Of a DNA stretch of 45,257 nucleotides, positions 7 to 26,148 are shown piece after piece. Within the stretch, counting starts at the first letter, position 1. The number at the start of each line of letters is the position of its first letter. A program made the position numbers and the translations under genes. Below the pieces are notes generated by a model. That model did not search any database and was not told the origin of the DNA. It saw only the letters and a program-made list of their open reading frames with translations. Location: assembly GCA_028710135.1 (NCBI GenBank), contig JAQUSS010000006.1, forward strand, positions 1 to 45,257, in the 5' to 3' direction. Source of the stretch: Gemmiger sp. (GTDB lineage: Bacteria; Bacillota; Clostridia; Oscillospirales; Ruminococcaceae).

Positions 7-160
7 GGCCACCATGTATGGTGGCCCTACGGAATTACGGCATGAATTTGGGGGTTACACCGTGGGGGCCAACGCGCCCTGGCAAAATTTGTGCCGCCTA
101 CCACATGGGGGCCTCCGTAGGGGCACGATACATCGTGCCCGCCCAATGGGGGTGACGAGG
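7..160. repeat. Palindromic repeat cluster 1 (type A at 7-26, type B at 121-140)
   Basis: A = GGCCACCATGTATGGTGGCC, B = GGGCACGATACATCGTGCCC; B is followed by GCCCAATGGGGGTGACGAGG. Confidence 0.9.
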
Positions 161-186
161 TTTGGCATGAATCTGCCCCCCCATCC

Positions 187-219
187 GCCTGCTTACGAAC
201 ATCGGTAAGCAGGCTTTTT
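187..219 (+). terminator. Rho-independent terminator
   Basis: GCCTGCTTAC-GAACATCG-GTAAGCAGGC followed by TTTTT; probably ends a gene upstream of the window. Confidence 0.8.
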
Positions 220-267
220 CTTTTGCCGGGGTCACGCGCTTTTTTAAAGTGTTTGCCGGGCATTCCC

Positions 268-317
268 TTGACTTTCATTTTTCGTATGGTATAATTCTAC
301 CTAACGGTAGGTAGAAT
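268..317 (+). promoter_or_regulatory. Promoter with overlapping palindromic operator upstream of TetR-family gene
   Basis: TTGACT (268-273), 16 bp, TATAAT (290-295); perfect inverted repeat ATTCTACCTA-ACGG-TAGGTAGAAT (294-317). Confidence 0.8.
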
Positions 318-339
318 ATTGTGATGGAGGAACGTTGCC

Positions 340-939
340 ATGGATAGCAAGGATAACGCCACAAAAAAACGAATCCTGGAGGCTATGTGTACGCTGGTGG
401 CACAGCGGGGGTACGATAAAGCCTCCATCGGGCAGCTTGCGGATGCCATTGGCATCAAAAAAGCCTCGGTGTATTACTACTTCAAATCCAAAGAGGAAAT
501 TTTTTTAAGCCTCGTTTCCGCACTTTACGAGGATGACTACCTGCAAAGCCCGCTGCTTTTGCAGCCGGATATCGACGCCCCCGGCTTTCAGGCCGAATTG
601 CTGCATTTTGGCGATGCGCTGATTGATTCCTATTTTGAAAACCCGGATATCCGCAAGGTGTATGCGGAAATTGATTTGCAAACCACAAGGATTCCGGCGC
701 TGAAAGAATTTGTTTATGCGGCGAACGAGCGGCTCAACCAATTTCTTTTGCGGTGCATGGCGCAGGGCGTTGCCATCGGCGCATTTCCGCAGGATTTTAA
801 TGCAGCGGTCAACGCCGAGCTTTTGTACACGCTGCTGGTCGGGATCGATGCCGCCATTTTGTATGACCTACCCATTGATACAAAGGCCGTGTGGCGCGAG
901 GCAATTTTGAAGCTATTTATACGAAAGGATTCCCGGTAA
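340..939 (+). CDS. TetR/AcrR family transcriptional regulator
   Basis: N-terminal HTH pattern KKRILEAMCTLVAQRGYDKASIGQLADAIGIKKASVYYYFKSKEEIF. Confidence 0.93.
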   Translation: MDSKDNATKKRILEAMCTLVAQRGYDKASIGQLADAIGIKKASVYYYFKSKEEIFLSLVSALYEDDYLQSPLLLQPDIDAPGFQAELLHFGDALIDSYFENPDIRKVYAEIDLQTTRIPALKEFVYAANERLNQFLLRCMAQGVAIGAFPQDFNAAVNAELLYTLLVGIDAAILYDLPIDTKAVWREAILKLFIRKDSR

Positions 940-942
940 AGT

Positions 943-2283
943 ATGACAGAACGTCAGTTTGCAACACTTCCTATCAAAAAAGTGTTCTTTTATTTAACGA
1001 TTCCCAGCATTTTAAGCATGGTGTTTTCCTCCGTGTATATGATGGCGGACGGCATTTTTGTCGGCCGCTTTATCGGCTCCCAGGCGCTGGCGGCGGTAAA
1101 CCTTGTCATGCCTATCATGACGATTGTGCTGGCGCTGCCCAACATGGTTGCGGTTGGCTCCTCGGTCAAGGTGTCCACCGCGCTGGGGGAGGGCGCGGTG
1201 GAAAAGGCAAAGCGCTTGTTTTCGGCCAGCGTCCTGATGGTGGTTGGCACCGGGCTTGTGTTCACGCTGCTGGGCATTCTTTTTCTCAAGCCGCTCATCT
1301 ACATGGCCATCCAAGACGCGGCCCTTGCGGCCTTCGCCTACGATTACGCGCGCTTTTTTGTTTATGGCCTGCCGTTTATTATGCCCTTGTTTGCCATGGA
1401 TAACTTTTTGCGCGTTTGTGGCAAAGCAAAATACAGTATGTGCGTAAACGTGGTGGTTTCGGTGCTAAATATTGCGCTGGACTGGTTTTTTATTGTGCGG
1501 CTTGGCTTGGGAATCGAATTTTCGGCAATTTCCAGCGTCATCAGCATGATGCTGGGCTCAGTGTTTTGCTTTGCGCCGTTTTTTACCAAAAAAATGACAC
1601 TGCATTTTGCAAAGCCGCAGATATCCGCAAAAGAGGTTGTGGGCATTTTGTACAACGGCAGCTCCGAGTTTTTTAGCGGGGTTGCCGGGTCCTTTCTTGC
1701 AACGGTCATCAACGGTTTTCTGCTGGCCCTTGGCGGCGCAACGGCCGTGGCAAGCTATGGCATTGTCATGTACATCGACACGCTGCTGGTTGGCGTGTTG
1801 TACGGCGTTTTGGACGCAATACAACCGGCGGTCAGCTACAATTTGGGCGCCAAGGAAATTGGCAGAACCTTCTCCTTTTTCAAAATTTCCAGCATCACAA
1901 CCGCGGCGGTATCGCTGGTTTGCATGGTGGGGATTCTGGCTTTCCCCGATGTTTTGGCCGGTATCTTTGCAAAGGGCGGCGACAAAGAGGTGACGGAGAT
2001 GACGATTGCCGCGCTGATTCTCTTCGCGCCCTCCTACCTGTTCACCTGGTACAACATGGTAACCAGCGCCTTTTTAACCGCCATGGACCGGCCCAAAGAA
2101 TCGATGCGGATTATGGCGTTTCGGGCCATTCTGTTCCCGCTGCTTTGCCTGGTTTTGCTCACCTTGTTTATGGGCGTTTACGGTGTGTTTTTTGCAGCAA
2201 CCCTCTCCGGTGGCCTCACGTTTATCGCCGCGGTGGTCATCTGGAATAAATCGGCCCGACAACTGCGCGGCGTATCGGGGTGA
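943..2283 (+). CDS. MATE family efflux transporter
   Basis: 446 aa polytopic protein, MTERQFATLPIKKVFFYLTIPSILSMVFSSVYMMADGIFVGRFIG; follows TetR by 3 nt. Confidence 0.92.
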   Translation: MTERQFATLPIKKVFFYLTIPSILSMVFSSVYMMADGIFVGRFIGSQALAAVNLVMPIMTIVLALPNMVAVGSSVKVSTALGEGAVEKAKRLFSASVLMVVGTGLVFTLLGILFLKPLIYMAIQDAALAAFAYDYARFFVYGLPFIMPLFAMDNFLRVCGKAKYSMCVNVVVSVLNIALDWFFIVRLGLGIEFSAISSVISMMLGSVFCFAPFFTKKMTLHFAKPQISAKEVVGILYNGSSEFFSGVAGSFLATVINGFLLALGGATAVASYGIVMYIDTLLVGVLYGVLDAIQPAVSYNLGAKEIGRTFSFFKISSITTAAVSLVCMVGILAFPDVLAGIFAKGGDKEVTEMTIAALILFAPSYLFTWYNMVTSAFLTAMDRPKESMRIMAFRAILFPLLCLVLLTLFMGVYGVFFAATLSGGLTFIAAVVIWNKSARQLRGVSG

Positions 2284-2371
2284 AATTGGCACCACGCCCG
2301 TGGTGGGGCACAAATTTGCACCGCGCCCGGGTCGCGGGCCAAACCCGCACCAGGCACCACGCCGGGGGTGC

Positions 2372-2848
2372 GGCCACCATGTATGGTGGCCCTACGGAGG
2401 TTGTGGCCATGGTGAAATTGGCACAGCCCGCCATATAGAGGCCTCTGTAGGGGCACGATGTATCGTGCCCGCCCAATGGGGGTGACGGGGTTAGGAAAAA
2501 ATTGTGCCGTGCGCCGTATGATGGCGAAATTTGCGCCACGCGCCTGTGTCGCGACAACCCCCGCACCATGCGCCATGCGGGGGGGGGCGGCCACCATGTA
2601 TGGTGGCCCTACGGAGGTTGTGGCGGGGGCAAGGCACCATGGTAAAATTGGCACCGCCCGCCAGACGGGTTGCGGCGAAAATGTTTGCGGGTGGCCCGGT
2701 GCAATGCCCACAAGGGCCTGCAACCGCCTGCATAAAAAAGGTCGAACAGAATTCCCAAAAGGGTTTCCTGTTCGGCCTTTTTGCTGTAAAATCCGCCACC
2801 ACACAGGGGTGGGCGGCGGCCTCCGTAGGGGCACGATACATCGTGCCC
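2372..2848. repeat. Palindromic repeat cluster 2 (A 2372-2391, B 2451-2470, A 2589-2608, B 2829-2848)
   Basis: Copies of the A/B palindromes; alternating A-B-A-B in the convergent intergenic region between the MATE and PHP genes. Confidence 0.9.
2734..2783. terminator. Bidirectional terminator inside repeat cluster 2
   Basis: AAAAAAGGTCGAACAGAATTCCC-AAAA-GGGTTTCCTGTTCGGCCTTTTT; A-tract and T-tract flank the stem. Confidence 0.75.
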
Positions 2849-3023
2849 GCCCAATGGGGGTGACGAGGTTAGGAAAAATTTGCGCCGCGCCTGTGTTGCG
2901 GCAACCCCCGTACCATGCGCCATGCCGGGGGGCGGCCAACGCGCCATGGCTTTGCCCCGCCACATGGGGTTGCGGCCAAAATGTTTGCGGCCAAAATGTT
3001 TGCGGGTGGCCCGGTGTGATGCT

Positions 3024-4010
3024 TTAGTTCCCTGCCAGGGCGGGCAGTACGCCGGCGGCTTTTAGGGCGGATAGGATGCGGGGGGTGGCGGCATCGCCGT
3101 GGTGGCCGCACAGGGAGATGGCGGGCTTGGTTTTGCCGTGGAAATCGCTGCCGCAGGTTACAAGCAGGCCGTGCGCCTGCGCAAACGCGTCAAAATGCGC
3201 GGCTTCGGCTTCGCTGTGGTAGGAGGAGTAGGCCTCGATGCCGTCGATGCCGGTGGCGGCAATTTGCGCAAGCAGGGCATCGTCGCCCTGCAAATTTTGG
3301 CCGGGGTGGGCCAGCACCGCAATGCCGCCCGCGCGGTGGAGCAGCGCCACTGCCGCCTCCAGCGAGATATAGCGGATGGGCTGGTAGGCGGGCTTGCCCT
3401 GCGAAAAATAGTCCCAGTAAAAATTGACAAAGGGGTTATCGGCCCGCTTGCCGCCGGGCAGGTAGGGACGCAAAATTTCGTGCTGGGGGGTATCGGTGCG
3501 CGCAAGGTAAATTTCCGCAATCTGTTCGCCGGTTATCCCGCTGCCGTTGGTGGCGGTGGCCAGCGCCTCGGGGGGGAGGGGGATGCCGGTAACCTGTTCA
3601 ATTTGGGCGATTTTTTGGGCGGCGGCGCGTTGCTCCTGCCCAAGAATATCGGCCTCAATCTCGGCAAAAATTGGCATCGTATCGTCAAAATGGTAGCCAA
3701 GCAGGTGGAGGTTGTGCCCCGCGTAGGTGCAATCCAGCTCCACGCCGGAAATGGCCACCACCCCAAACTGGGGGGCCAGGGTTAGCGCTTCGGGCAGCGC
3801 GCGCACGGTGTTATGGTCGGCAATGGCGAGATAGGTTGCCCCCGCCCCTTGGCACCGGCGCAAAATTTCAGCAACCGGGAATTCGCCATCGTCGCTGTAC
3901 AGGGTATGGACGTGCAAATCTATTTTTTCGCCGCCGCCGTTGGTGGGGCCTGCCCCCGGCATTTGCCGGGCGGGGCCGGTTGGGTTCGCATACATGGAAT
4001 CGGTGGCCAT
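3024..4010 (-). CDS. PHP domain-containing metal-dependent phosphoesterase
   Basis: DLHVHTLYSDDGEFPVAEILRRCQGAGATYLAIADHNTV and C-terminal GSDFHGKTKP motifs. Confidence 0.88.
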   Translation of the reverse strand: MATDSMYANPTGPARQMPGAGPTNGGGEKIDLHVHTLYSDDGEFPVAEILRRCQGAGATYLAIADHNTVRALPEALTLAPQFGVVAISGVELDCTYAGHNLHLLGYHFDDTMPIFAEIEADILGQEQRAAAQKIAQIEQVTGIPLPPEALATATNGSGITGEQIAEIYLARTDTPQHEILRPYLPGGKRADNPFVNFYWDYFSQGKPAYQPIRYISLEAAVALLHRAGGIAVLAHPGQNLQGDDALLAQIAATGIDGIEAYSSYHSEAEAAHFDAFAQAHGLLVTCGSDFHGKTKPAISLCGHHGDAATPRILSALKAAGVLPALAGN

Positions 4011-4114
4011 AGGTACAACCTCGTTTCATGTTTTTTGTGTGGTGTCGGTGGGCGGGGCGGGGGCAAGGCACCATGGTAAAATTGGCACCGCCCGCCACAG
4101 GGGGGCCTCTGTAG

Positions 4115-4545
4115 GGGCACGATATCTCGTGCCCGCCCAATGGGGGTAACGGGGTTAGGCAAAACGGGCCACGCGCCGTATGGGGGGCAAAAATTACGCG
4201 GTGCGCGTGTCGGGGATGAAATTTGCGCCGTGTGCCGTATCAAGGCAAAATTTGCGCCGTGCCTGTGTTGCGGCAACCCCCGCACCGCGCGTCGCGCCCG
4301 GGGGGCGGCCACCATGTATGGTGGCCCTACGGAGATTGCGGTGGGCACCATGGTAAAATTTGCACCGCCCGCCATATGGGGGCCTCTCTGTAGGGGCACG
4401 ATACATCGTGCCCGCCCAATGGGGGTGACGAGGCCTGGAAAAACGGGCCACACGCCGTATTGGGGCGGAATTTGCGCCGTGCCTGTGTTGCGGCCTCCCT
4501 GCACCGCGTGTCGCGCCCTGGGGGCGGCCACCATGTATGGTGGCC
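4115..4545. repeat. Palindromic repeat cluster 3 (B 4115-4134, A 4307-4326, B 4394-4413, A 4526-4545)
   Basis: Same A/B palindromes; the first B is a variant, GGGCACGATATCTCGTGCCC. Confidence 0.9.
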
Positions 4546-4646
4546 CTACGGAGGTTGCGGCGGGCACCATGGTAAAATTGGCCCCGCCCGCCCTGTGGTA
4601 TTCCGTCATGAATCGGGGGCTCCATCATGTCGGCCACCGCGGCCGG

Positions 4647-5033
4647 TTATTTATCGGCTCCGGCCAGCTTTTCCTCCGCCTCGGTTACCACATCGTCGTA
4701 ATGCTCGATTTTGGTGTTTAGCCGGGCCAGAATGCGCTGCATTTCCGCCATGCGGGCAAGAAGCTGCTCGCGCTGCTCCACCAAAATTTGTTTGCGGGCG
4801 GCGTGGGTGGCATCGCCCTGCTGAAACAGGGCCACATACTCAATCAGCGCCTCCACCGGGATGCCGGCGCTGCGCATACACTTGATAAATTCTACCCAGC
4901 CGCAGTCATTTTCCGAATAATCGCGGATGCCGCCCCCGGTTCGCCCCACGGGGGGCACCAGGCCAATCCGCTCGTAATAGCGCAGGGTATCGGCGGTTAA
5001 GGCGTACTTTTTGCTCACCTCGGCAATGGTCAT
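4647..5033 (-). CDS. MerR family transcriptional regulator
   Basis: MTIAEVSKKYALTADTLRYYERIGLVPPVGRTGGGIRDYSENDCGWVEFIKCMRSAGIPVEALIEYV. Confidence 0.93.
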   Translation of the reverse strand: MTIAEVSKKYALTADTLRYYERIGLVPPVGRTGGGIRDYSENDCGWVEFIKCMRSAGIPVEALIEYVALFQQGDATHAARKQILVEQREQLLARMAEMQRILARLNTKIEHYDDVVTEAEEKLAGADK

Positions 5034-5054
5034 GGCGTGTACCCTCCCTTGTTT

Positions 5055-5594
5055 TTATACCTGCTTGCCCATCTCGTAGGCCTGTTGCAGGGCGGGGCTG
5101 TTTTGAATTTCGCCCACCTGCCATACGCCGGTGCCGTACACAATGCCTTTTTCGTGCGCGTTGGGCAGGCAATCGGCGGTAAAACCGCGGAAACCGCTGA
5201 TGGTCCGCTGCATGGCGGCGGCATCGGTATCGGCGGCGGTTACAATAAAGTAAAAATCCTTGCCCGCAATCTCCTGGTAGCGGGGCACGGTGCGGTCAAT
5301 CATGGTTTTCATCTGGCCGTCCATGGTGTAAAAATAAACCGGCGTTGCCAGCACAATCACATCGGCCTGCACCAGCTTTTCAAGAAGCGCGGCCATATCG
5401 TCCCGCTGCACACATTGGTGGGTGGTGTTGCAAACGCCGCAGCCGGTGCAATAGTTGATTTTTTGGCTGCGCAAAAACACCTTTTCGGTGTCGTGCCCGC
5501 TCTCGCTTGCGCCCCGGATAAACGCATCGCACAGGGTATCGGAGTTGCCGCCCTTGCGGGGGCTGCCGGAAATGACAAGAACCTTTTTACGCAT
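5055..5594 (-). CDS. NAD(P)H-dependent FMN reductase / flavodoxin-like oxidoreductase
   Basis: MRKKVLVISGSPRKGGNSDTLCDAFIRGA, ATPVYFYTMDGQMKTMIDR; start moved from 5609 to the Met preceded by GAGGAA. Confidence 0.88.
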   Translation of the reverse strand: MRKKVLVISGSPRKGGNSDTLCDAFIRGASESGHDTEKVFLRSQKINYCTGCGVCNTTHQCVQRDDMAALLEKLVQADVIVLATPVYFYTMDGQMKTMIDRTVPRYQEIAGKDFYFIVTAADTDAAAMQRTISGFRGFTADCLPNAHEKGIVYGTGVWQVGEIQNSPALQQAYEMGKQV

Positions 5595-5690
5595 GATAAA
5601 ATTCCTCAATTCTTTTTATTATATTTTAAAATGTAGGAGCGCGTGGCCCGGCCCCCCCGCCGGTTGCCGGGCAGGCAAGGGCAGGGCGGT

Positions 5691-5742
5691 GGGGCGTTGG
5701 GGCGCTGGGGCGCTGGGGCGCTGGGGCGTTGGGGCGTTGGGG
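5691..5742 (+). repeat. 8-bp tandem repeat (GGGGCGYT)x6 + GGGG, G-quadruplex-like
   Basis: Seven GGGG runs separated by CGTT/CGCT. Confidence 0.95.
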
Positions 5743-5928
5743 ATGGCCCCTTCTGCGCCCCCCAATAGGCACCCAAAATATACGCCCTAAAATAAGTGCC
5801 TAAAATAGGCATGGATACGATAGGTATACCGCTAGTATACCGCACGGCGCGGCTATTTGCCAGCGGCAAAATCGGTGGAGGCCGCCAGGGCGTTTTGCGT
5901 CAGGGGCATGGTTTTCTCCTTTCCGTTT

Positions 5929-6351
5929 TCATTCGGGGTGTGCGGCCAGGGCGTTATAATCCGCGCTGTTTAACGGCTCACACCATTCGGTGGTGGCGCC
6001 TGCGGCGGGGGCCGCAATGGCCAGGTGCGCAAAGCAGCAATCTTCTGCCGCGCCGTGCCAGTGCTTTACCTCCGGCGGGATGTGTACCACGTCCCCGGCG
6101 CGCAGCGCCCGCGCCGGTTCGCCCCATGCCTGGTACCAGCCCCGCCCGCCGGTCACCAGCAAAATTTGGCCGCCCTTGTGGTGGATGTGCCAGTGGTTGC
6201 GGCAGCCCGGCGCAAAGGTTACGTTGGCAATGGACACCCCCTCGCGCTCGGTGGAAAGGGTGTGCAGGTAGCTGGTGCCATCAAAAAATGCGGCGTAGGC
6301 GGTATTTTCGCCGCCGGTTGGGAAAATAAATTGCTCCATATTCATGTCCAT
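5929..6351 (-). CDS. Cupin domain-containing protein
   Basis: HWHIHHKGGQILLVTGGRGWYQ...AGDVVHIPPEVKHWHGAAED metal-binding cupin motifs; start at 6351 supported by AAAGGAG. Confidence 0.9.
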   Translation of the reverse strand: MDMNMEQFIFPTGGENTAYAAFFDGTSYLHTLSTEREGVSIANVTFAPGCRNHWHIHHKGGQILLVTGGRGWYQAWGEPARALRAGDVVHIPPEVKHWHGAAEDCCFAHLAIAAPAAGATTEWCEPLNSADYNALAAHPE

Positions 6352-6365
6352 ATAAGTTGCTCCTT

Positions 6366-7538
6366 TCATCGGTACGCTTTTTCAAAAATTGCGGCACATT
6401 CTGCGTCCGAGAGCGGCACGCGGTCGCACGCAAACAGGCCGCCCATGGTGGCGCGGGCGTTTTGCGCCAGGGCCATGCACTCGGCTTTGGCAATGCCGTA
6501 GTCAGACATTTTTAGGTTTGCCACCCCGCAAGCCTGTTGTAGGTTTACAAGCGCGGTGATAAAATCCATCGGGGCGGCGGCATCGGCCATGCCTAGCGCC
6601 CGGGCCATTTTCACAAAGCGTTCATCGCAGGCGTGCTTCTCGATAAAATGGGTGTAGTACGCCTGCGAGAGCATAATCAGGCCCGCGCCGTGGGGGAGGT
6701 TGGGGTGGTAGGCGCTCATAGCGTGCTCCATAGAATGCTCGCTGGTGCAGGAGCCGACCACCATCGAATAGCCGGATAGGGTGTTTGCAAAGGCCATCTG
6801 CGCCCGCGCTTCGGCATCATCGCCGTTTTGAACGGCGCGGGGCAGGTATTTGCCCACATTCTCAATGGCGGCCAGGCCTACCAGTTCGCTCATCGGGTTG
6901 GCGGCGGCGGAAATATAGCCCTCCGTGGCGTGGAATAGGGTGTCAAAGCCCTGGTAGGCCGTGAAGGCGGGCGGCACGGTGCGCATCAGCTCGGGGTCCA
7001 CAATTGCCAAAACCGGGAACAGGCTATCCATGCCGCCGCAGCCGATTTTCTCGTGGGTTTCGGGGTTGGTAACAACGCCCCAGGCATCCACCTCACTGCC
7101 GGTGCCCGCGGTGGTGGTGATGGCAATTACCGGCAGCGGGGGGTGAACAAGCGGCTGGTTCCCCCCGGTGGCACCCGCCACGTAGGCCCAAAGGGGGCCG
7201 GGCTGGGGCGCGGCCATGGCAATCACCTTTGCGGCATCCAGCACCGAGCCGCCGCCCAGGGCCACCACAAAATCGCAGCCATTTTCCCGGGAAAAGGCGG
7301 CCCCTTCCTCCACCGTTGCTTTTTGCGGGTTGGCGCCGATTTTGCCAAACACCACGGCCTGTGCGCCCGCCAGGGCAAGCTGCTCTAGCGTGCGGTCAAG
7401 CGCGCCGCTTGTGCGGGCCGATTTGCCGTTGGAAATAACCACCAGCGCCTTTTTTCCCGGCATGGCCTGGGTGTGCAGGGCCGATAACTGCCCGGCCCCA
7501 AATAAAACCCGTGTGGGTAGGTATACCTGAAAATTCAT
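6366..7538 (-). CDS. Iron-containing alcohol dehydrogenase
   Basis: MNFQVYLPTRVLFGAGQLSALH..., GGGSVLDAAKVIA, HSMEHAMSAYHPNLPHGAGL; N-terminal extension in the ORF track to 7661 judged non-coding. Confidence 0.92.
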   Translation of the reverse strand: MNFQVYLPTRVLFGAGQLSALHTQAMPGKKALVVISNGKSARTSGALDRTLEQLALAGAQAVVFGKIGANPQKATVEEGAAFSRENGCDFVVALGGGSVLDAAKVIAMAAPQPGPLWAYVAGATGGNQPLVHPPLPVIAITTTAGTGSEVDAWGVVTNPETHEKIGCGGMDSLFPVLAIVDPELMRTVPPAFTAYQGFDTLFHATEGYISAAANPMSELVGLAAIENVGKYLPRAVQNGDDAEARAQMAFANTLSGYSMVVGSCTSEHSMEHAMSAYHPNLPHGAGLIMLSQAYYTHFIEKHACDERFVKMARALGMADAAAPMDFITALVNLQQACGVANLKMSDYGIAKAECMALAQNARATMGGLFACDRVPLSDAECAAIFEKAYR

Positions 7539-7594
7539 CAATGCTACACTCCTTTTTGTGCCCGTGCAGGGCGGTTGCTTCGGCTGTACCAAGA

Positions 7595-7624
7595 GGATAA
7601 CACCTGGAGTGAACTCGAAGTCAA
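7595..7624 (-). promoter_or_regulatory. MerR-type promoter upstream of the Fe-ADH gene
   Basis: Minus strand: TTGACT-TCGAGTTCACTCCAGGTG-TTATCC; 18-bp spacer holding the imperfect dyad CGAGT-TC-ACTCC. Confidence 0.75.
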
Positions 7625-7735
7625 GCCCTTTTTTTGAATTTTTTGAAAAAGAGGTGGCCAAGCATCACCGCGACACCCGATTTTTCCCGGGCCACGTTGG
7701 CCGCCACGATGATCAATCATCACCGCAACCCGTAG

Positions 7736-8387
7736 GGCCACCATACATGGTGGCCGCCCCCCGGCGTGGTGTGCGGTTTTTGGGTTGCCGAGGTGCGGCG
7801 GGCGGCCGTTCGGGCATGGTGGGTGGTGGCGATTTTGCCCCAACACGGGCGCGGTGCCGGTTTTTGCCAGGCCCCGTTACCCCCATAGGGCGGCCACCAT
7901 ATATGGTGGCCCTACAGAGGCCCCGCACCTCATAGGGCGGTGGCAATTTTCCCATGGCACATTGGCCGCCACGGAGGCCAATCATCACCGCAACCCGTAG
8001 GGCCACCATACATGGTGGCCGCCCCCCGGGCGGTGTTGTGGTTTTGGGGGTTGCCGGGGTCCGGCGGGTGGCCGTTCGGGCATGGCGGGTGGTGCCGATT
8101 TTGCCCCAACATGGGCGCGATGCCGGTTTTTACCGGGCCCCATTGGCCGCCACGGAGGCCAATCATCACCGCAACCCGTAGGGCCACCATACATGGTGGC
8201 CGCCCCCCGGCGGTGTTGTGGTTTTTTGGGGTTGCCAGGGTCCGGCGGGTGGCCGCCTGGGCATGGCGGGCGGTGCCGATTTTGCCCAGACACGGACGCG
8301 GTACAAATTTTATGCCCCAACATGGGTACGGTGCCGTTTTTGCCAGGCCCCGTTGGCCGCGTAGGGCGGCCACCATATATGGTGGCC
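7736..8387. repeat. Palindromic repeat cluster 4 (type A only: reverse 7736-7755, 8001-8020, 8182-8201; forward 7892-7911, 8368-8387)
   Basis: GGCCACCATACATGGTGGCC and forward versions; two reverse copies lie in a ~181-bp near-direct repeat. Confidence 0.9.
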
Positions 8388-8502
8388 CTACGGAGGCACC
8401 CCCGCTTCCCTCCCCCCCCTACACCAAAAATAAAAAAATGTGACATTTTGGGGCGTTTGGGGGTATCCTTGTCAGAACCGGTTCCCGAAGGAGGTAATTG
8501 CA

Positions 8503-9000
8503 ATCGACAATGCAGAATTTGAAACCTTGATGCAAACGTACCAGGATGTAATCTGGCGGGTGGCCCTCAACTATACCAAAAACCCAACCGATGCCGAGGA
8601 TGTGGCGCAAAACACCTTGCTGCGCATCTACCGCGCCAAAAGCACCCCGCCGCTTGGCGATGCGGCACACCTGCGCTACTGGGTGCTGCGCATTGCGGTA
8701 AACGAGAGCAAACGCTGGCTGGCGGCGCCCTGGCATATCCACCGACAACAAAGCCTGCCGCTGCCGGAGGAACTGCCCGCCACCACGGGCATGACCACGC
8801 GCGAGCAGACGCTGTATGCCGCGCTGGAAACCCTGCCCGCAAAGTATCGCATTACACTGTACCTATTTTATTACGAAGATTTGCCCGTGAAAGAGATTGC
8901 GGCGCTGCTCAACATTTCCGCCACGGCGGTCACCACCCGCCTTGCGCGGGGGCGGGGCGCGCTCAAGGCCCATTTGGAAGGAGTTTTTTTCGATGTGTGA
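8503..9000 (+). CDS. ECF RNA polymerase sigma-70 family factor
   Basis: NAEFETLMQTYQDVIWRVALNYTKNPTDAEDVAQNTLLRIYRA...LYLFYYEDLPVKEIAALLNISATAVTTRLARGRGALKAHLE; AAGGAGG lies 8 nt before an in-frame ATC at 8503 (ORF track starts at 8440). Confidence 0.88.
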   Translation: MDNAEFETLMQTYQDVIWRVALNYTKNPTDAEDVAQNTLLRIYRAKSTPPLGDAAHLRYWVLRIAVNESKRWLAAPWHIHRQQSLPLPEELPATTGMTTREQTLYAALETLPAKYRITLYLFYYEDLPVKEIAALLNISATAVTTRLARGRGALKAHLEGVFFDV

Positions 9001-15665: not shown

Positions 15666-15728
15666 GCGCAACCGGGGGCCTAAACAATAAAACCAAAAGC
15701 AACCAAAATAAAAAGGAGAGAAAACAAG

Positions 15729-17108: not shown

Positions 17109-17129
17109 CCCCCGGCACTTTAAAATTAA

Positions 17130-17186: not shown

Positions 17187-17227
17187 TGTGGAAAACCACG
17201 CGGCAGCGCAAGCAGAAAGGGAACACG

Positions 17228-18571
17228 ATGCAGACAAACAAAAATGTGATTGTTTTTTTTACCGACCAACAGCGTTACGATACCACCGGGGTGCATGGCA
17301 ACCCGGATGGCTTGACCCCCAACTTTGACCGTATGGCCCTGGAGGGGACGTTTGTACAGAAGGCATTTACCCCCCAGCCGGTGTGCGGCCCGGCCCGCGC
17401 TTGCCTGCAAACGGGGCAGTATGCCACCACGCTGGGCAACTACCGCAATGCCATACCCCTTGCGCAGGAGCATAAAACCATGGCACATTATTTTAACGCG
17501 GCAGGCTACGATACCGCGTATATTGGCAAGTGGCACCTGGGTAGCACCCGCCTGGCCGTGCCCCGGCAGGAGCGGGGCGAGTATGCCGATTGGTTGGGCG
17601 CGGGCGCGCTGGAGGCAAGCTCCCGCCCGTACGATACTGTGGTGTACGATAACGACGACCACGCTGTAAAGCTGCCCGGTAACCGGATGGATGCCCTGAC
17701 CGATGCCGCCATCCGCTACCTGGACCACCACCAAAAGCAGCCGTTTTTCTTGTTTTTATCTTTTTTGGAACCGCATTTCCAAAATTCGAACGATAGCTTC
17801 CCGGCACCCCGCTCGATGAAGCCCATCACCAACCCCTACACCCCGCCCGATTTAAACGCACTGCACGGCACCGCACACCAGCACCTGCCGGGGTACTATG
17901 CCATGGTAAACCGGCTTGACCAATGCCTGGGCCGTGTGCAGGATGCGCTAAAAAGCCTGGGGATGGAGGAGGATACCATCCTGCTGTTCACCACCGACCA
18001 TGGCTGCCACTTTAAAACCCGCAATGCCGAATACAAACGCTCCTGCCACGAAAGCTCGATTCGGCTGCCGATGGCGTTTACGGGCGGGCCCTTTACGGGG
18101 GGCGGCACCGTGCGGGAGCTGGTAAGCCTTGTGGACGTTGCCCCCACCCTTTTGGATGCCTGCGGCATTGCGGTGCCGCCCGAAATGCAAGGCAACTCGC
18201 TGATGCCGCTGCTGCGCCGCCAGCCGGGTGCCTGGCCGCAAACCGCCTTTGTACAAATCAGCGAGGCGGAGGTGGGCAGGGCCATCCGCACCCAGCGATG
18301 GAAATATGCGGTGGCCGCCCCCGATAAAGACCCCATTGCCGACCCGGATTCTGACCATTACCGGGAAACCGCCCTCTACGATTTGGAGGAGGACCCCTAC
18401 GAGTTGGATAACCTGGTGGGCTTACCCTCCCACCGGGGGGTAAGCGATGTTTTAAAGGCAAAGCTGCTGGCCCGCATTGCTGAAATTGAGGGCAAGCACC
18501 CGGTTATTGAAAATGCGCCCGAGCGCCCCTGCGGCCAACGCCGGGTTTTTGCGGGCGAAGAAAATTTATGA
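17228..18571 (+). CDS. Cys-type sulfatase
   Basis: FFTDQQRYDTTG metal site and PVCGPARACLQTGQY (CxPxR formylglycine signature, Cys53 codon 17384-17386). Confidence 0.92.
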   Translation: MQTNKNVIVFFTDQQRYDTTGVHGNPDGLTPNFDRMALEGTFVQKAFTPQPVCGPARACLQTGQYATTLGNYRNAIPLAQEHKTMAHYFNAAGYDTAYIGKWHLGSTRLAVPRQERGEYADWLGAGALEASSRPYDTVVYDNDDHAVKLPGNRMDALTDAAIRYLDHHQKQPFFLFLSFLEPHFQNSNDSFPAPRSMKPITNPYTPPDLNALHGTAHQHLPGYYAMVNRLDQCLGRVQDALKSLGMEEDTILLFTTDHGCHFKTRNAEYKRSCHESSIRLPMAFTGGPFTGGGTVRELVSLVDVAPTLLDACGIAVPPEMQGNSLMPLLRRQPGAWPQTAFVQISEAEVGRAIRTQRWKYAVAAPDKDPIADPDSDHYRETALYDLEEDPYELDNLVGLPSHRGVSDVLKAKLLARIAEIEGKHPVIENAPERPCGQRRVFAGEENL

Positions 18572-18601
18572 GGAATTTTATAAAGAAAGGCGCGGCATAC
18601 C

Positions 18602-21600
18602 ATGCAGCAAGATAACAAGCTAAAGCACGGCATCCAGCCGTTTTGGTTTTGGAACGGTGCCATGGAGGAAGGCGAGATGCGCCGCCAAATCCTGGCGATG
18701 AAGGCACAAGGGCTGACCGGGTTTTTTATCCACCCGCGCCAGGGGCTGGAGATACCCTACCTTTCCAAAACGTTTTTCGAAAAGGTACAGCTTGCCGTGG
18801 CGGTGGCCAAGGAATGCGGCATGGAGGTGTGGCTGTACGATGAGTTCCCCTACCCCAGCGGCATCAGCGGGGGCAAGGTGACGCTGGCCCACCCCGAGTA
18901 CGCCTGCACCGAGCTGATAAAAACCTGTGCCGATTACAGCGGCGGCCAAACGGCCCGCCTGTATGCCCCGTGGGGCAAGGTGCTATCGGCCCGCGCCTAC
19001 CGGGTGGAGGATGGCCGCTGCCGGTGGGATAGCTACCTGGATTTAAAAGACCTGGTGGGCAGCGGCTACCAGCAGGATGTTTTTCAGTTTAGCGGGCTGA
19101 CAAAATACAACAAAAAGCGGTATTTCCAGGGGGAGCTTGCCCAGTATTTGTACTGGCAGGTGCCGCAGGGGCAATGGCGGGTGTACCTTTACACCGAAGC
19201 CGTGATGAAAAACTTTAAATACTTTGAGGAATTTATTGACCCCCTCAACCCGGCGGCGGTGCGGTACTTCCTGGAAACGACCCACGAGCAGTACAAGCAC
19301 TACGTGGGGGCAGAGTTTGGGAAAACCATCCGGGGCATTTTTACCGATGAGGTCACCGCGTTCCCGCCGTTCCACCCATGGTCCCGCTTGCTGCCCGGGC
19401 TGGTGCAGGCCGATACCGGGCTGGATTTGACCGAGTATCTGCCCGCTTTATCCGAAGATATGGGCGAAATTACGGCAAAAATACGCTATGCCTACTGGAA
19501 CGCCGCCACCGAGCAATTTATCAAAAGCTGGGATCAACAGGTTTACGGCTGGTGCGAACAAAATAACCTGTTGTACGTTGGCGAAAAACCAATTTTGCGC
19601 AGCAAGCAGCTTGCCTACACCCATGTGCCGGGCATTGATGCAGGCCACCAAAAATTTGAGAGCCGGGCCGTGCTTGCGGCAAACAAGTACCGTGCCAACG
19701 GCAAAATCGCCTCCTCGGCGGCGCATTTTTACAAAAAACCGGCGGCCCTGTGCGAGGCATTCCACAGCATTGGCTGGGGGATGACCCTACAGGATGCCAA
19801 ATGGATTTTTGATTGGCTGACCGTGATGGGGGTGGATTGGTTTGTGACCCACGGTGCCTACTACACCACCGATGCCCTAAAAAAGCACGATGCGCCACCC
19901 TCCGGCTTTTACCAGATGCCCTGGTGGCAAAACACCCACCAGCTTAGTGGCTATGTGCGGCAGCTTAACAACTTTTTGACCCAAAACCGGCGCAGGGTAT
20001 CGGTGCTGCTGCTAGACCCCATCACCAGCACCTGGACGGAAACCGACGCGGCCCTTGCGCGCCTAAACCAGGATTTTGCCGATTTTCAAAACCAACTGTT
20101 GCGCGCCGGGGTGGATTATTATATTATGGACCCACAGCTATTTGCACAGGGCACCGTATCCACCCAGGGGGGCAGGGCTTGCTACCATAACGGCGAGGAT
20201 GCCTTTGAAATTGTGGTGCTGCCGTTTATGACCAACCTGGAACCCTGCGCCGTAAACAAGCTGCAAGAATATGCGGCGGCGGGCGGGCAGGTGTTGGCCG
20301 CCGCCACCCTGCCCTACCGGAATGTGGCGGGCCTGGCCTACGAAAGCTGGGTTGCCGCCGCGTTTGGGGTGGCGCCCGCCGCGGCCTGCCGCGCCTATTT
20401 TGCCCCGGCAAGCCCCAACACCCAGCCCCCCCTGCAGCCCCAAAAGCAGCCGGATGCCCAGCCGGGCAACTGCCGCTTTGTGGCCGATTGGCAGCAGGCG
20501 GTAACGGCCCTTGCCCAGATGGAACAACCCCTGCGCAAATGGCAGGTGCGTGCGGATGCGGGCGATTTATTGCAGGTGCAAAGCACCGGGCCGGATGGCA
20601 CCGAAAAACTGTTTTTAACCAACCTGGCCCCGCAGCGCTGCACGGCCGAGATTTGCTTGGGAGGCAAGCGTATAAAGCGCTGCCTTGCCGGGGGCGAATC
20701 TCTATTTTTGAGCGAGGAAACGCTGCTGGAACCGCCGGTGGCCTACCCGCTGCTAACGCTGGATACCGCCGAAATTTTGCCCTGCCGCGCATTATCCCCC
20801 AACGCGCTGCGCCTTGGCCGGTGGCAGCTACACCTGCCGGACGGCCAAACCGCCCCGGCGGAAACCTTCCCCTTAATTGACCAGTTTGAGGCTGCGGGCA
20901 TCAAAATTGCGGTTTGCCAAAAAGATTTCTTTGGTTGCCCCAAGGAGCTTGCCTTCCCGCCGGTAACGGCGCGGTATACCTGCTACTTTGAAAATACCCT
21001 GCCGCACGGCACCAAGGTGCTGCTGGTGATGGAGCCGGGCACCCTGTTGGGGGATTGGCAGCTCCGCCTTGGCGGCAGGGAATACGGCCCGGCGGATTTT
21101 GCAACCACCCCCGTTTACCTGCCCAGCAACCTGGCCCTGGATGTAACCGAGGCCCTTTGCCCGGGGCAAAATTGCCTGGAGCTATGCCTAAGTGCCGAAA
21201 AAAGTTTTGGCGGCATCCGCAACCCGCTCTACCTGTGTGGGCGGTTTGGGGTGGCGCTGGGGGCAAACGGCCCGGTGCTGGGGCCTGCCAAGGCCCAGGG
21301 GCCAATGGCGGGGCTTGCTGCCTGCGGCCTGCCCTACTACGCGGGCACAGCCGAATTTACCAAGCAGATTCCGCCGCCGCTTCGGCAGCAGGCGCTGCAA
21401 AGCGGTGGGCTGCGCGTTTGCGTGGGGGACGAACATTTCCACCAGGCGCTGCGGCTGAAGGTAGGCGGGGCCGAAATTGGCACCTGTGCCTTTGCGCCCT
21501 ACGCTTTTACGGTGCCTGCCGCTGCCCTGCAAACCGCCGATACCCTTACCATGGCGGTGGATACCGCCCTGGAACGCCTGTTTGAAGGCGAATATTTTGA

Positions 21601-21655
21601 GGAAACCGCCCACGAATACCGTGGGGTGGAAACCGAACCCATGGCCACAATTTAA
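18602..21655 (+). CDS. Large glycoside-hydrolase-like protein (GH106-like, possible alpha-L-rhamnosidase relative)
   Basis: 1017 aa: LKHGIQPFWFWNGAMEEGEMRRQILAMKAQGLTGFFIHPRQGLEIPYLS plus C-terminal beta-sandwich-like region; family assignment from memory only. Confidence 0.6.
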   Translation: MQQDNKLKHGIQPFWFWNGAMEEGEMRRQILAMKAQGLTGFFIHPRQGLEIPYLSKTFFEKVQLAVAVAKECGMEVWLYDEFPYPSGISGGKVTLAHPEYACTELIKTCADYSGGQTARLYAPWGKVLSARAYRVEDGRCRWDSYLDLKDLVGSGYQQDVFQFSGLTKYNKKRYFQGELAQYLYWQVPQGQWRVYLYTEAVMKNFKYFEEFIDPLNPAAVRYFLETTHEQYKHYVGAEFGKTIRGIFTDEVTAFPPFHPWSRLLPGLVQADTGLDLTEYLPALSEDMGEITAKIRYAYWNAATEQFIKSWDQQVYGWCEQNNLLYVGEKPILRSKQLAYTHVPGIDAGHQKFESRAVLAANKYRANGKIASSAAHFYKKPAALCEAFHSIGWGMTLQDAKWIFDWLTVMGVDWFVTHGAYYTTDALKKHDAPPSGFYQMPWWQNTHQLSGYVRQLNNFLTQNRRRVSVLLLDPITSTWTETDAALARLNQDFADFQNQLLRAGVDYYIMDPQLFAQGTVSTQGGRACYHNGEDAFEIVVLPFMTNLEPCAVNKLQEYAAAGGQVLAAATLPYRNVAGLAYESWVAAAFGVAPAAACRAYFAPASPNTQPPLQPQKQPDAQPGNCRFVADWQQAVTALAQMEQPLRKWQVRADAGDLLQVQSTGPDGTEKLFLTNLAPQRCTAEICLGGKRIKRCLAGGESLFLSEETLLEPPVAYPLLTLDTAEILPCRALSPNALRLGRWQLHLPDGQTAPAETFPLIDQFEAAGIKIAVCQKDFFGCPKELAFPPVTARYTCYFENTLPHGTKVLLVMEPGTLLGDWQLRLGGREYGPADFATTPVYLPSNLALDVTEALCPGQNCLELCLSAEKSFGGIRNPLYLCGRFGVALGANGPVLGPAKAQGPMAGLAACGLPYYAGTAEFTKQIPPPLRQQALQSGGLRVCVGDEHFHQALRLKVGGAEIGTCAFAPYAFTVPAAALQTADTLTMAVDTALERLFEGEYFEETAHEYRGVETEPMATI

Positions 21656-21674
21656 AAAGGGGGCCGTTTGGCTT

Positions 21675-22454
21675 ATGGAAAAAACAATACGCTGGTGCGC
21701 CATTGGCGATTCCTTCACCTACTTGAACGACCACCGGGACGAGATGGGTTTCCGCGTTCAAAAAGGGTATTTGACCCGCACGCTGGAAAAGCTGAACACC
21801 CCGGTGGAACTGATTAATTTGGGGATCAATGGTTCCACCACCGCCGATTGGCTAAACGCCCCCCTGGCGCAGGCCGAGCTGTACACCATCCTGCTGGGCA
21901 CCAACGATTGGTTCCACGGGGATATCCCGCCCGGCACCAAAGCCGATTACCAAAACGCCCTGCCCGGCACCACGCTGGGCAATTTGGGGCGGCTGGTGCA
22001 GCGCATCCGCGCGCTGTGCGCCACCGCACCCATTTTGGTAATGAACCCGGTGGAACGTGGGGATTTTATCTGCCTGAGCGATTTTACCAACACCGCGCAT
22101 GGCAGCTACCGCCCGGCGGGCGGGGGCACCCTTGCCGCGCTGGCCGAGCAAATTTTGCAGGGGGTAACCGGCCCCGGCGTTGAAACGCTGGATTTACATG
22201 GCCTGTGCGGCTTTACGCCGGGCAATGCCGTGCATTTTAAGCGGGTGCGCCGGGCGGGGGCTATTTGCGAGCTACCCTACCCCCAGTTTGTGGACCTTCC
22301 GTTTGACCCCGTGGCCGACCCCTACCCCTACCCCGAGGCCGCTGTTGCCCTGACCTATGATGGGCTGCACCCCTCCGACGAAGGGTGCGAAATTTTGGCG
22401 GGGCTGCTGGCCGGCCGGCTGAACGAGATTTTGGCGCGCAAAACCAACCCCTAG
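21675..22454 (+). CDS. SGNH/GDSL hydrolase, putative carbohydrate esterase
   Basis: IRWCAIGDSFTYLNDH, LGINGSTTADW, LLGTNDWFHG, DGLHPSDEGCEILA. Confidence 0.87.
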   Translation: MEKTIRWCAIGDSFTYLNDHRDEMGFRVQKGYLTRTLEKLNTPVELINLGINGSTTADWLNAPLAQAELYTILLGTNDWFHGDIPPGTKADYQNALPGTTLGNLGRLVQRIRALCATAPILVMNPVERGDFICLSDFTNTAHGSYRPAGGGTLAALAEQILQGVTGPGVETLDLHGLCGFTPGNAVHFKRVRRAGAICELPYPQFVDLPFDPVADPYPYPEAAVALTYDGLHPSDEGCEILAGLLAGRLNEILARKTNP

Positions 22455-22461
22455 GCATAAC

Positions 22462-22507
22462 AAAAGCGTAAGCTGTGTACCAAAACGGTGCAGCTTACGC
22501 TTTTTTT
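22462..22507 (+). terminator. Rho-independent terminator after the sulfatase/GH/esterase operon
   Basis: AAAAGCGTAAGCTG ... CAGCTTACGCTTTTTTT. Confidence 0.88.
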
Positions 22508-22579
22508 GCCCCCCAGCTCGCCAGAATAAAACAAAAACAACGGCCCAGCGCTGGATGGTGGGGGCGCAAAGTGGAAAAT

Positions 22580-22610
22580 ACTTGACATTATCAAGTTGTT
22601 TTTATATACT
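22580..22610 (+). promoter_or_regulatory. Promoter and probable operator of MarR gene
   Basis: TTGACA (22582) - 17 bp - TATACT (22605); dyad ACTTGA-CATTA-TCAAGT overlaps the -35. Confidence 0.8.
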
Positions 22611-22635
22611 GGAGGTATTGAGAAGGGGTGCCGCC

Positions 22636-23094
22636 ATGCAACAAACGCTTGCCTATTTTGTGACCCTGCTGCGCAAAAATTTTACCGAATATTGTAACCG
22701 CCGCCTGGCAAAGGTGGGGTTAACGCAGGGGCAGCTTTACTTTATTTTGTACATTGGGCGTCACCCGCGCTGCGCCCCCAAGCAGGCCGCGCAGGCCCTA
22801 CAGGTGGATGCCGGGCAGGCCACCCGCACCCTGGCCCGCCTGGTGCAGGATGGCTTTGTGCTGCAAGAAAAGGACGAGAAAGACCGCCGCGCCCACACCC
22901 TGCGGCTAACCGAGCAGGGGCAGGCGGCCTTTGGGTTAAGCCACGCCCTGCTTACCCAGTGGGAGGCAAAGGCGCTGTGCGTGCTTTCGGCCAAGGAGCA
23001 GGCAACCCTGCTGGCGCTGCTGGCCAAGGTGGCCCGGCAGGGCTGGCAGAACGAAGAAAACGAGCCGGGCGAAAAGAACCAACCGGCGCAATAG
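22636..23094 (+). CDS. MarR family transcriptional regulator
   Basis: LTQGQLYFILYIGRHPRCAPKQAAQALQVDAGQATRTLARLVQDGFVLQEKDEKDRRAHTLRLTEQG. Confidence 0.92.
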   Translation: MQQTLAYFVTLLRKNFTEYCNRRLAKVGLTQGQLYFILYIGRHPRCAPKQAAQALQVDAGQATRTLARLVQDGFVLQEKDEKDRRAHTLRLTEQGQAAFGLSHALLTQWEAKALCVLSAKEQATLLALLAKVARQGWQNEENEPGEKNQPAQ

Positions 23095-23367
23095 GGCCAA
23101 TCGGCCCAGCCGGGGCAGTGGGTGCACGGCAACGCGGCCCGGCCCGCAAGGGTACACCCGCAAAAATACCATGGCAAAATACCCCCGCTAAAAAACGGCC
23201 CTTATACCCCGGCCAAACCCCCGCCCCAAACCCGGCGCAACCCCACCTAAAAACAGGTAAAACCCCGTGCACGGGGCACAGGGCGGGGCGGGTATGCCGC
23301 CGCCCTGCTGTGCGGGTTACCACAAACCCCCACCAAAACACCCAAAAACAGAAGGAGAATGAAAACC

Positions 23368-23868
23368 ATGACGTATGCAATTGTTTACAGCAGCCAAACC
23401 GGCAACACGGCACAGCTTGCCGGGGCGCTGAAAGCGGCGCTGCCCGCAAGCAGCCTGGTGTACTGCGGCGCGCCCGATGCCGCCGCCCCCCAAGCCGATT
23501 TTGTTTTTGCAGGCTTTTGGACGGATAGGGGCAACAGCGACCCTGCCGCTACCGAATTTTTAAAAACCCTGCGCGGCAAGCAGGTGTTTTTGTTTGGCAC
23601 GGCGGGCTTTGGCGGCAGCGATGCGTATTTTGCCCAGATACTGCAACAGGTGGAAACGGCGCTTGACCCCTCCAACACGGTGGTGGGGCGCTATATGTGC
23701 CAGGGCAAAATGCCGGCATCGGTGCGGCAGCGCTACCAGGCCATGCAGGCCCAGCAGCCCGAAAAAATGCAGGAAATGATTGAAAATTTTGACCGCGCAC
23801 TCGCCCACCCGGACGAAGCCGACCTGGCCAATTTTGTGCAGGCCGCCACCCCCTTTGCCGCTCAGTAA
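23368..23868 (+). CDS. Flavodoxin family protein
   Basis: YAIVYSSQTGNTAQLAGAL FMN-binding loop; KQVFLFGTAGFGGSDAYF. Confidence 0.88.
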   Translation: MTYAIVYSSQTGNTAQLAGALKAALPASSLVYCGAPDAAAPQADFVFAGFWTDRGNSDPAATEFLKTLRGKQVFLFGTAGFGGSDAYFAQILQQVETALDPSNTVVGRYMCQGKMPASVRQRYQAMQAQQPEKMQEMIENFDRALAHPDEADLANFVQAATPFAAQ

Positions 23869-23891
23869 AAATACGGAACACGCCAACCAAA

Positions 23892-23935
23892 AACACCCGC
23901 CACATTGCAAAAATGTGGCGGGTGTTGCTGTTTTG
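23892..23935. terminator. Bidirectional terminator between flavodoxin and MATE
   Basis: ACACCCGCCACATT-GCAAA-AATGTGGCGGGTGT then TGCTGTTTT. Confidence 0.85.
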
Positions 23936-23938
23936 CGC

Positions 23939-25288
23939 CTATGCCGAGGCCCGGTGCAGGGTGGTGCGCCATTTGCCGGTGCGGTACTCGGCAAAAGAAA
24001 TCAGGTAGTTGGCCAGCCAGCCGATGGGCACGGCAAACCACACCATCTGGATGCCGAACCGGGGGGCCAGGGTGACGGCCAGCACCACCCGCAGCCCCAA
24101 ATTTACAAGGTTTGCCACCGTGAACATGGGCATATCGCCCGCGCCCCGCAGCAGGCCGTCCGTCATCATTTTTAGCCCAATCAGCAGGTAAAACAGCCCG
24201 GTAAAGCGGGTGCAGGCGGTGCCGGTGGCCAGCGCCACGGCGCTGCTATCGGTATCCATAAACAGCGAGATTAAGGGGGTGGCACACGCTTGGGTAACCA
24301 GGCAGATGCCGGCGGCAATGGCCGCCACAATGCCGTAGCCCACATGGTAGCCCCGCGCTACCCGGCCCTGCTGCCCGGCCCCCAGGTTTTGGGCTGTATA
24401 GCTGGAAAAGGCGTTGCCAATGGCGGCCATGGGCACAATGCAAAGGCTTTCAATCCGCATGGAGGCCGAGTACCCGGCCAACACCTCCGACCCAAAGCTG
24501 TTTACCACCGATTGCACCAGCATCATCCCGATGGAAACGGTGGACTGTTGCAAAATGGAGGGCAGAGCAATGCGGTTCATCCGGCCAAATTCCTTGGTGT
24601 CAAAGCAAAGCCCGGCCCCCTTGGCCGGGTAGCCGTGCAGCACCCGCAAAAAAATTACAAAGGAGGCAACCGCCGATACCCCCTGGGCAATCAGGGTGGC
24701 CCAGGCAACCCCGGCCACCCCTAGGCCCAGCACCCGCACCATATATAAATCCAGCGCAACGTTAAAAAGGGACGAAAAAACCAGCAAATACAGCGGGATG
24801 CGGCTTTTGCCCAAAGAGTTGAACAGGGCCGAAAGCACGTTGTACATAAATAAAAACGGCAAGCCTAAAAAGTAGATATCCAGGTAGGTGGTGGCATCGC
24901 CCAGCACGTTGGCGGGGGTTTGCAGCCACGCCATAAAGGTGGAGGAAAACCGCAGCCCCACCCCGCCCAGCACCAGGCCCAACACCAAAAAGGCCACCAG
25001 CGCGGTGGAAACCGAGCGCCGCATACGGGTGTAATTGCGGCTGCCAAACATCTGCGCCGTGATGACGGAAGCCCCCACCCCGCCGCCGATGGCGATGGAG
25101 ATGAACACATTGGTCAGCGAGTAGGAGGCGCCCACAGCCGCCAGGGCCTCCTCGCCCACAAAGCGGCCCACAATTACTGAATCGGCCATGTTGTAAAATT
25201 GCTGGAACAAATTGCCGATGATCATGGGCAGGGCCAGGGTCAGCAGTGCCCGTGCGGGCGGGGTGCGTATCAGATATTCCTTTTCCAT
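23939..25288 (-). CDS. MATE family efflux transporter
   Basis: MEKEYLIRTPPARALLTLALPMIIGNLFQQFYNMADSVIVGRFVGEEALAAVG; ORF-track extension to 25549 reads through a repeat cluster. Confidence 0.92.
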   Translation of the reverse strand: MEKEYLIRTPPARALLTLALPMIIGNLFQQFYNMADSVIVGRFVGEEALAAVGASYSLTNVFISIAIGGGVGASVITAQMFGSRNYTRMRRSVSTALVAFLVLGLVLGGVGLRFSSTFMAWLQTPANVLGDATTYLDIYFLGLPFLFMYNVLSALFNSLGKSRIPLYLLVFSSLFNVALDLYMVRVLGLGVAGVAWATLIAQGVSAVASFVIFLRVLHGYPAKGAGLCFDTKEFGRMNRIALPSILQQSTVSIGMMLVQSVVNSFGSEVLAGYSASMRIESLCIVPMAAIGNAFSSYTAQNLGAGQQGRVARGYHVGYGIVAAIAAGICLVTQACATPLISLFMDTDSSAVALATGTACTRFTGLFYLLIGLKMMTDGLLRGAGDMPMFTVANLVNLGLRVVLAVTLAPRFGIQMVWFAVPIGWLANYLISFAEYRTGKWRTTLHRASA

Positions 25289-25368
25289 GGGTACCTCTCT
25301 TGTTTGTTTTACATCTGTTTTTGCTGGGGGGAAAATTTGCGGCGTTGCCAAACGGGGAACCTCCGTAG

Positions 25369-26148
25369 GGGCACGATACATCGTGCCCGCCCAATGGGGG
25401 CAACGGGGCATGGCAGAACGGATGGGGCGGCGGGGGGCGGCAGGCCGCGCACCACGCCTGTGCCGGGGCAACCCCCGCACCGTGCCCATTGCCCGGGCAA
25501 AATTTGTGGCGTGCGCCCGCGCCGGGCCAATCCGGGGGCGCGGTGCCATGGCGGGGCGGCCACCATGTATGGTGGCCCTACAGGGTTGCGGTTATGGTTG
25601 GGCCTGCGCGGCCCGGCAAAATTGGCACCGCCCGCCACACGGAATTGTGGTGATGGTTGGGCCTGCGCGGCATGGCAAAATTTGCACCGCCCGCCACACG
25701 GGGCCTCCGTAGGGGCACGATACATCGTGCCCGCCCAATGGGGGCAACGGGGCCTGGCGAAACGAATGGGCCCACCGGGCGGCAGGCTGCGCACCGCGCC
25801 TGTGCCGCGGCAATCCCCCGCACCGTGCCCGTGCCGGGGAAAAATTTGTGGCGTGCGCCCGTGCCGGGCCAATCCGGGGGCGCGGTGCCATGGCGGGGCG
25901 GCCACCATGTATGGTGGCCCTACAGGGTTGCGGTTATGGTTGGGCCTGCGCGGCATGGCAAAATTGGCACCGCCCGCCACACGGGGCCTCCGTAGGGGCA
26001 CGATATATCGTGCCCGCCCAATGGGGGCAACGGGGCCTGGCAAAAACCCGCACCGTGCCCGTGCCCGGCCAAAATTTGTACCACGCCGGTGCCCGTGCCA
26101 ATCCCGGGGCCGCGGGCCATGGCGGGGCGGCCACCATGTATGGTGGCC
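25369..26148. repeat. Palindromic repeat cluster 5 (B 25369, A 25558, B 25713, A 25900, B 25996, A 26129; each 20 bp)
   Basis: Strict B-A alternation in one orientation with ~340/283-bp spacing and a ~59-bp internal tandem duplication (ATGGTTGGGCCTGCGCGG at 25594 and 25653). Confidence 0.9.

Follow-up and report, generated by a model that had tools for sequence, protein, structure and literature searches.

The first 45,257 nucleotides of contig C112 of a Gemmiger sp. genome (the window) raise the question of what two closely related palindromes, which recur between its genes, are and how they spread. The genome is a 2.8-Mb metagenome-assembled genome (MAG) of 229 contigs, 88% complete, whose gene content suggests a Clostridia-like affiliation, and the window starts at base 1 of its contig. 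We put at roughly 80% the probability that these palindromes, types A and B, are the GTAG-tagged repetitive extragenic palindromes (REPs) of a single species and that the two sister types are the two ends of doublets (GTAG-B ... A-CTAC) resembling bacterial interspersed mosaic elements (BIMEs) and REP doublets forming hairpins (REPINs). Such doublets most likely do not move autonomously but depend for their copying on a REP-associated tyrosine transposase (RAYT) of the HUH/Y1 type.

Two sister palindromes and their arrangement

A script scan of the window recovered all 21 palindromes listed in an earlier sequence-only reading, 13 of type A and 8 of type B, in five clusters (Table 1). The coordinates given here are those of the 28-mer, whereas the earlier reading counted from the 20-nt palindromic core, which begins 4 nt inside it. 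Both types have a GTAG foot, a stem of 8–9 bp and a 2-nt loop, type A being built as GTAG-GGCCACCAT-AC-ATGGTGGCC-GCCC and type B as GTAG-GGGCACGAT-AC-ATCGTGCCC-GCCC. They are distinguished, as had been claimed, by two linked compensatory C:G to G:C swaps in the stem, in addition to loop variants (ATATAT or ATGTAT replacing ATACAT in several copies). The description of common GTAG and GCCC flanks and of invariably perfect hairpins applies generally, with the exception of two type A tails, GACC and GCAC, and of one B copy (4111), in which an ATATCT loop breaks the innermost A:T pair. All eight B copies lie on the plus strand. The copies adjoin convergent, divergent and tandem genes. After correction of the over-long start of open reading frame (ORF) 23939–25549, none of the 21 falls within a gene. 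That start was annotated too far 5': the MATE domain begins at about residue 108 and the MurJ match at residue 97, and a plausible start codon is located 3' of the B copy at 25365.

In the whole genome, at least 151 copies were found with up to two mismatches, as opposed to none for a reversed-pattern control, so the abundance of the palindrome is not due to chance. This number is a lower bound because several contigs start or stop inside A/B arrays; a separate count of 293 matches, which scores each near-palindrome twice, was not used as a copy number. A sample of 302 kb of the same genome, analyzed in detail, contains 135 copies (84 A and 51 B) in 29 clusters, with all nine stem pairs intact in 125 of them. 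Single-base decay aside, the four diagnostic positions read CCGG in every A copy and GGCC in every B copy of this sample, which included no copy with just one of the two swaps and no A/B intermediates. The compensatory change within this genome is one linked event that was then amplified, not repeated independent compensation. The sequence-only reading had argued from covariation to selection on the hairpin; the direction of that argument stands, but it draws its support from other species, where stems of different sequence still form the palindrome.

The arrangement of the two types follows a rule. A doublet consists of B on one strand and A on the other, with the GTAG feet pointing outward, spans ~130–260 bp and is tandemly repeated as in BIMEs, the clusters being composed of tandem units of ~180–340 bp. 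In the 302-kb sample, outward-foot doublets joined A to B in 41 of 50 cases, compared with a mean of 23.7 and a maximum of 37 in 5000 label shuffles, and same-direction neighbours were of different types in only 1 of 14. Since tandem duplication makes neighbours non-independent, the count by cluster is given as well: of the 24 clusters with both types, 22 had every A in one direction and every B in the opposite one. The ends differ beyond the swaps: on the inner, 3' side of B some 30 nt more are conserved, next to A hardly any.

DNA folding predicted one long hairpin for all nine A-A units, whereas 24 of the 41 A-B units were predicted to form two separate hairpins and 16 a single long one; the calculated duplex energies were -22.7 for A:A vs -7.9 or -13.5 for A:B. 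These models are compatible with a role of the sister ends in keeping the two hairpins separate, although they are not proof of it.

Table 1. Palindromes (28-mers, located by script scan), doublets and a duplicated block in the window
Feature	Position	Strand	Remarks
REP type A	3..30	-	tail GACC; partner past contig end
REP type B	117..144	+	
424-bp block	2336..2759	+	A,B,A and half a terminator hairpin; 96% copy on contig C13
REP type A	2368..2395	-	tail GCAC
REP type B	2447..2474	+	loop GATGTATC
REP doublet B...A	2447..2612		166 bp, GTAG feet outward
REP type A	2585..2612	-	
REP type B	2825..2852	+	
REP type B	4111..4138	+	loop ATATCT, innermost A:T pair broken
REP doublet B...A	4111..4330		220 bp
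REP type A	4303..4330	-	
REP type B	4390..4417	+	
REP doublet B...A	4390..4549		160 bp
REP type A	4522..4549	-	
REP type A	7732..7759	+	
REP doublet A...A	7732..7915		184 bp, minority homo type
REP type A	7888..7915	-	loop ATATAT
REP type A	7997..8024	+	
REP type A	8178..8205	+	
REP doublet A...A	8178..8391		214 bp
REP type A	8364..8391	-	loop ATATAT
REP type B	25365..25392	+	
REP doublet B...A	25365..25581		217 bp
REP type A	25554..25581	-	
REP type B	25709..25736	+	
REP doublet B...A	25709..25923		215 bp
REP type A	25896..25923	-	
REP type B	25992..26019	+	loop ATATAT
REP doublet B...A	25992..26152		161 bp
REP type A	26125..26152	-	

RAYT genes and a possible route of spread

The suggestion, made from the window sequence, that the palindromes parallel REP/BIME elements with their RAYTs is borne out by the GTAG foot, the 8–9 bp stem, the inverted doublets and their BIME arrays, and by a RAYT gene beside one array. 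This intact gene (G000:C31 6349–6912, minus strand) encodes 188 aa from the likely ATG, within a 220-codon frame; 267 bp separate it from an A,B,A,B array on its upstream side. No RAYT was detected in the genome with Pfam PF01797 (Y1_Tnp) at its default threshold; at E<=10 this profile points to the 220-codon frame. The protein matches the NCBIfam family NF047646 (REP-associated tyrosine transposase) with E=2e-15, and a PDB sequence search gave 4er8, E. coli TnpAREP, as the closest solved sequence. Alignment with 21 relatives identified the motifs MPNHIH, W, HDHI-RN and YI--NP and all of the core residues, namely H78 and H80 of the HUH motif, W144, the catalytic tyrosine Y165, and N169. The best fold match of an AlphaFold model (predicted local distance difference test, pLDDT, 80) is likewise 4er8, in which TnpAREP is bound to a REP hairpin. 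The enzyme is predicted to act on A and B by binding and cleaving single-stranded REPs.

A second RAYT, on contig C106, is frameshifted, has lost its HUH motif and carries other REPs in its reading frame. The two palindromes inside this pseudogene (L153:3370–3570), GGGCGGATATTATCCGCCC and GGGCGGATATCATCCGCCC, show no amplification in the stretches that were read. Because this copy is broken and associated with other REPs, and the C31 gene is intact beside an A/B array, the C31 RAYT is the most likely partner of the A/B family, subject to the reservations that REPs flank it on one side only and that the genome is incomplete. Derivation of the doublet spacers from the RAYT gene was also considered and was rejected, as no convincing protein similarity was found.

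Several observations weigh against this assignment or against transposition in general. The expected gene flanked by the same palindrome was found in part only: the A/B array lies at its 5' side, with no REP at the 3' side within the stretch read, and there is no A/B palindrome inside the gene. That a single gene lies near a single array may be fortuitous, with a chance of ~5% by an estimate from cluster density, and another cognate RAYT may be missing from a MAG of this completeness. The NF047646 score of 56.8 is below the curated cut-off of 80; that cut-off was exceeded in just 1 of 120 genomes, most relatives' RAYTs scoring below it too, so it does not discriminate here. Finally, neither insertion polymorphism nor empty sites could be demonstrated, as the genes next to the clusters are not in conserved order in 16 relatives.

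If the doublets are indeed RAYT substrates, they would move via single-stranded DNA. Wherever a strand becomes single, for example at replication forks, each doublet end would fold into its own hairpin; the RAYT would read the GTAG foot together with the hairpin and cleave nearby, so that the doublet is copied or moved, and local tandem duplication would then build the arrays. Since A and B share their outline but differ in sequence, self-pairing of an end should be favoured over pairing between the two ends. Such self-pairing might keep the two recognition hairpins separate, or mark the left as opposed to the right end, and either could be the reason for having two sister types.

REPs are also found inside RAYT genes. 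Of 41 distinct RAYT ORFs from relatives, 23 have a sense REP ~40 codons before the HUH motif and an antisense REP ~12–22 codons after it, both in frame, and some of these pairs are sister pairs; the feature is scattered across the tree. Examples of in-frame GTAG palindrome pairs around the HUH segment include L061:3671–4213, L063:3633–4130, L087:1429–1959, L090:1348–1893 and L154:17661–18200, among others, and the palindromes inside those genes are often the genome's own dispersed REPs or sister types of these. We do not present REPs inside RAYT genes as new, because PMC6006769 describes them in TnpAREP subclass 2.4, where most lie in the HUH–Y interval. Their placement as a pair around HUH is our own reading, which may already be contained in the supplement of that paper.

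Relatives and described REP families

A search of 120 relatives found the exact family in no sampled relative of the genus or family. It is absent from the 34 other sampled species of the genus, and in 85 further relatives the only matches were a few weak ones, confined to two genomes of a different family; nor was it found in the viral contigs and plasmids searched. Single copies of the exact 28-nt B palindrome, or of B with an ATATAT loop, are present in three Acidobacteria MAGs (L175, L180, L181) and, as a near twin, in a KSB1 MAG (L176); we read these look-alikes in distant phyla as convergence or a shared alphabet.

Several members of the genus have GTAG palindromes of their own with other stems. 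An excess of GTAGGG...CCGCCC was seen in 8 of 15 genomes of the genus with a RAYT vs 0 of 20 without (Fisher p=3e-4), where RAYT presence was taken as an NF047646 match at E<=1e-11, the genome of the window was counted as having a RAYT by its own NF047646 match, and the cut-offs were chosen after the tables had been seen. Among dispersed outward doublets of 30–150 bp in relatives, 14 of 42 were sister pairs and 3 identical pairs; compared with random pairs, most of those genomes have more sister and fewer identical pairs, in what is a small sample. In one relative (G018), about a dozen tandem GTAG palindromes (GGCGGGATGCCC..CATCCCGCC) with ~30 bp spacing are located downstream of a RAYT (L107).

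A close parallel in design is provided by the y and z1/z2 REPs of E. coli, where BIMEs combine y with z1 or z2 (PMC8266576). They share the GTAG foot, the two sister types related by a compensatory stem change (GGCCGGAT/ATCCGGC vs GGCCTGAT/ATCAGGC) and the inverted, hetero arrangement of neighbours, which we confirmed for 7 of 7 neighbouring y/z pairs in 100 kb of E. coli K-12. However, E. coli stems are long and bulged and differ by a G:C to T:A change, whereas the A/B stems are perfect 9-bp stems with two C:G to G:C swaps, and the spacers are longer in the A/B family. Sub-families with alternative complementary stem residues are reported for most GTAG families (Di Nocera 2013, PMC3733652). 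The GTAG super-family of that paper matches A/B in its tag, 6–9 bp stem, 2-nt loop, outward-foot dimers and large clusters, although its main text, as distinct from the sequences in its Figure 1, names no Firmicutes or Clostridia. The REPINs of Pseudomonas fluorescens (PMC3116915) are likewise inverted REP doublets that form arrays and are linked to a RAYT, but they fold as one long hairpin, as do our A-A units, in contrast to the two hairpins predicted for most A-B units.

On the enzyme side, TnpAREP subclass 2.4, or RAYT group 4, as described in PMC6006769 (Quentin 2018), resembles the present system in its long REPs of canonical form, whose stems start from three G-C pairs at the foot, its variable insert between HUH and Y, and its in-frame REPs, seen here in many relatives and in the genome's own RAYT pseudogene. 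The intact C31 RAYT differs in keeping a mere palindrome relic at the in-gene site, and its likeness to this subclass is one of features. REPs near RAYTs are reported to vary yet remain palindromic (PMC2817692).

Other explanations and significance

It is conceivable that the family has spread solely by recombination and tandem duplication of intergenic blocks captured by chance, the RAYT playing no current part. The 424-bp block, with its several REPs and half a terminator, would fit such a history, its counterpart (G000:C13:11693–12114) ending within the loop of a terminator hairpin that the window has whole, and so would the tandem units of the clusters. Nevertheless, the end types and the orientation rule are constant across the 29 sampled clusters although the spacers differ, and the excess of GTAG palindromes tracks RAYT presence across the genus, so we consider this explanation unlikely. 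Somewhat less likely still, the hairpins could be kept mainly for a host function, such as binding of gyrase, IHF or Pol I, transcription attenuation, or protection of mRNA 3' ends, with their spread being secondary. Roles of this kind are on record for the REPs and BIMEs of E. coli (literature cited in PMC8266576) and would be compatible with copies next to genes in every orientation; however, the absence of the exact family from the sampled relatives leaves no conserved host role visible.

Miniature inverted-repeat transposable elements (MITEs) of a DDE-type insertion sequence would also have inverted ends and units of this length, but here each end is itself a GTAG-footed palindrome and the enzyme beside the array is of the Y1 rather than the DDE type (no search was aimed at DDE transposases), which makes such an origin very improbable. 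The idea that the palindromes are intrinsic transcription terminators, to which intergenic GC-rich hairpins might point, is largely refuted and the least probable. The sequence-only reading was right that they are not simply terminators: no T-tract follows the REPs on either strand; the terminator scan picked a separate, canonical hairpin at 187–214 and revealed no excess over shuffles, and some copies lie between divergent genes. No Rfam family matched the window at gathering score. Elsewhere in the window, between genes at 5684–5742, GGGGCGYT octamers form a tandem array.

We rate the A/B palindromes as a new, species-specific REP/BIME family of the known GTAG kind, with a probable RAYT. Most described families come from the Proteobacteria; this large one lies outside them, and in it the y/z design of the E. 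coli BIMEs recurs with unrelated sequences. In addition, RAYTs of the C31 sort are missed by a plain Pfam Y1_Tnp search. The part that we judge worth following is a tentative, and at present doubtful, generalization to this bacterial order: doublet ends may be sister hairpins with one or two compensatory stem swaps, each folding on itself and not with its partner, and the swap may serve as a code by which the RAYT reads left and right. The similar sister pair in frame around HUH in the RAYT genes of several relatives could then mean that the gene carries its own doublet. If this rule holds widely, it would open to testing the long-standing question of why the two hairpins of a doublet are related yet not equal, and whether it is the stem by which TnpAREP distinguishes the left end from the right.

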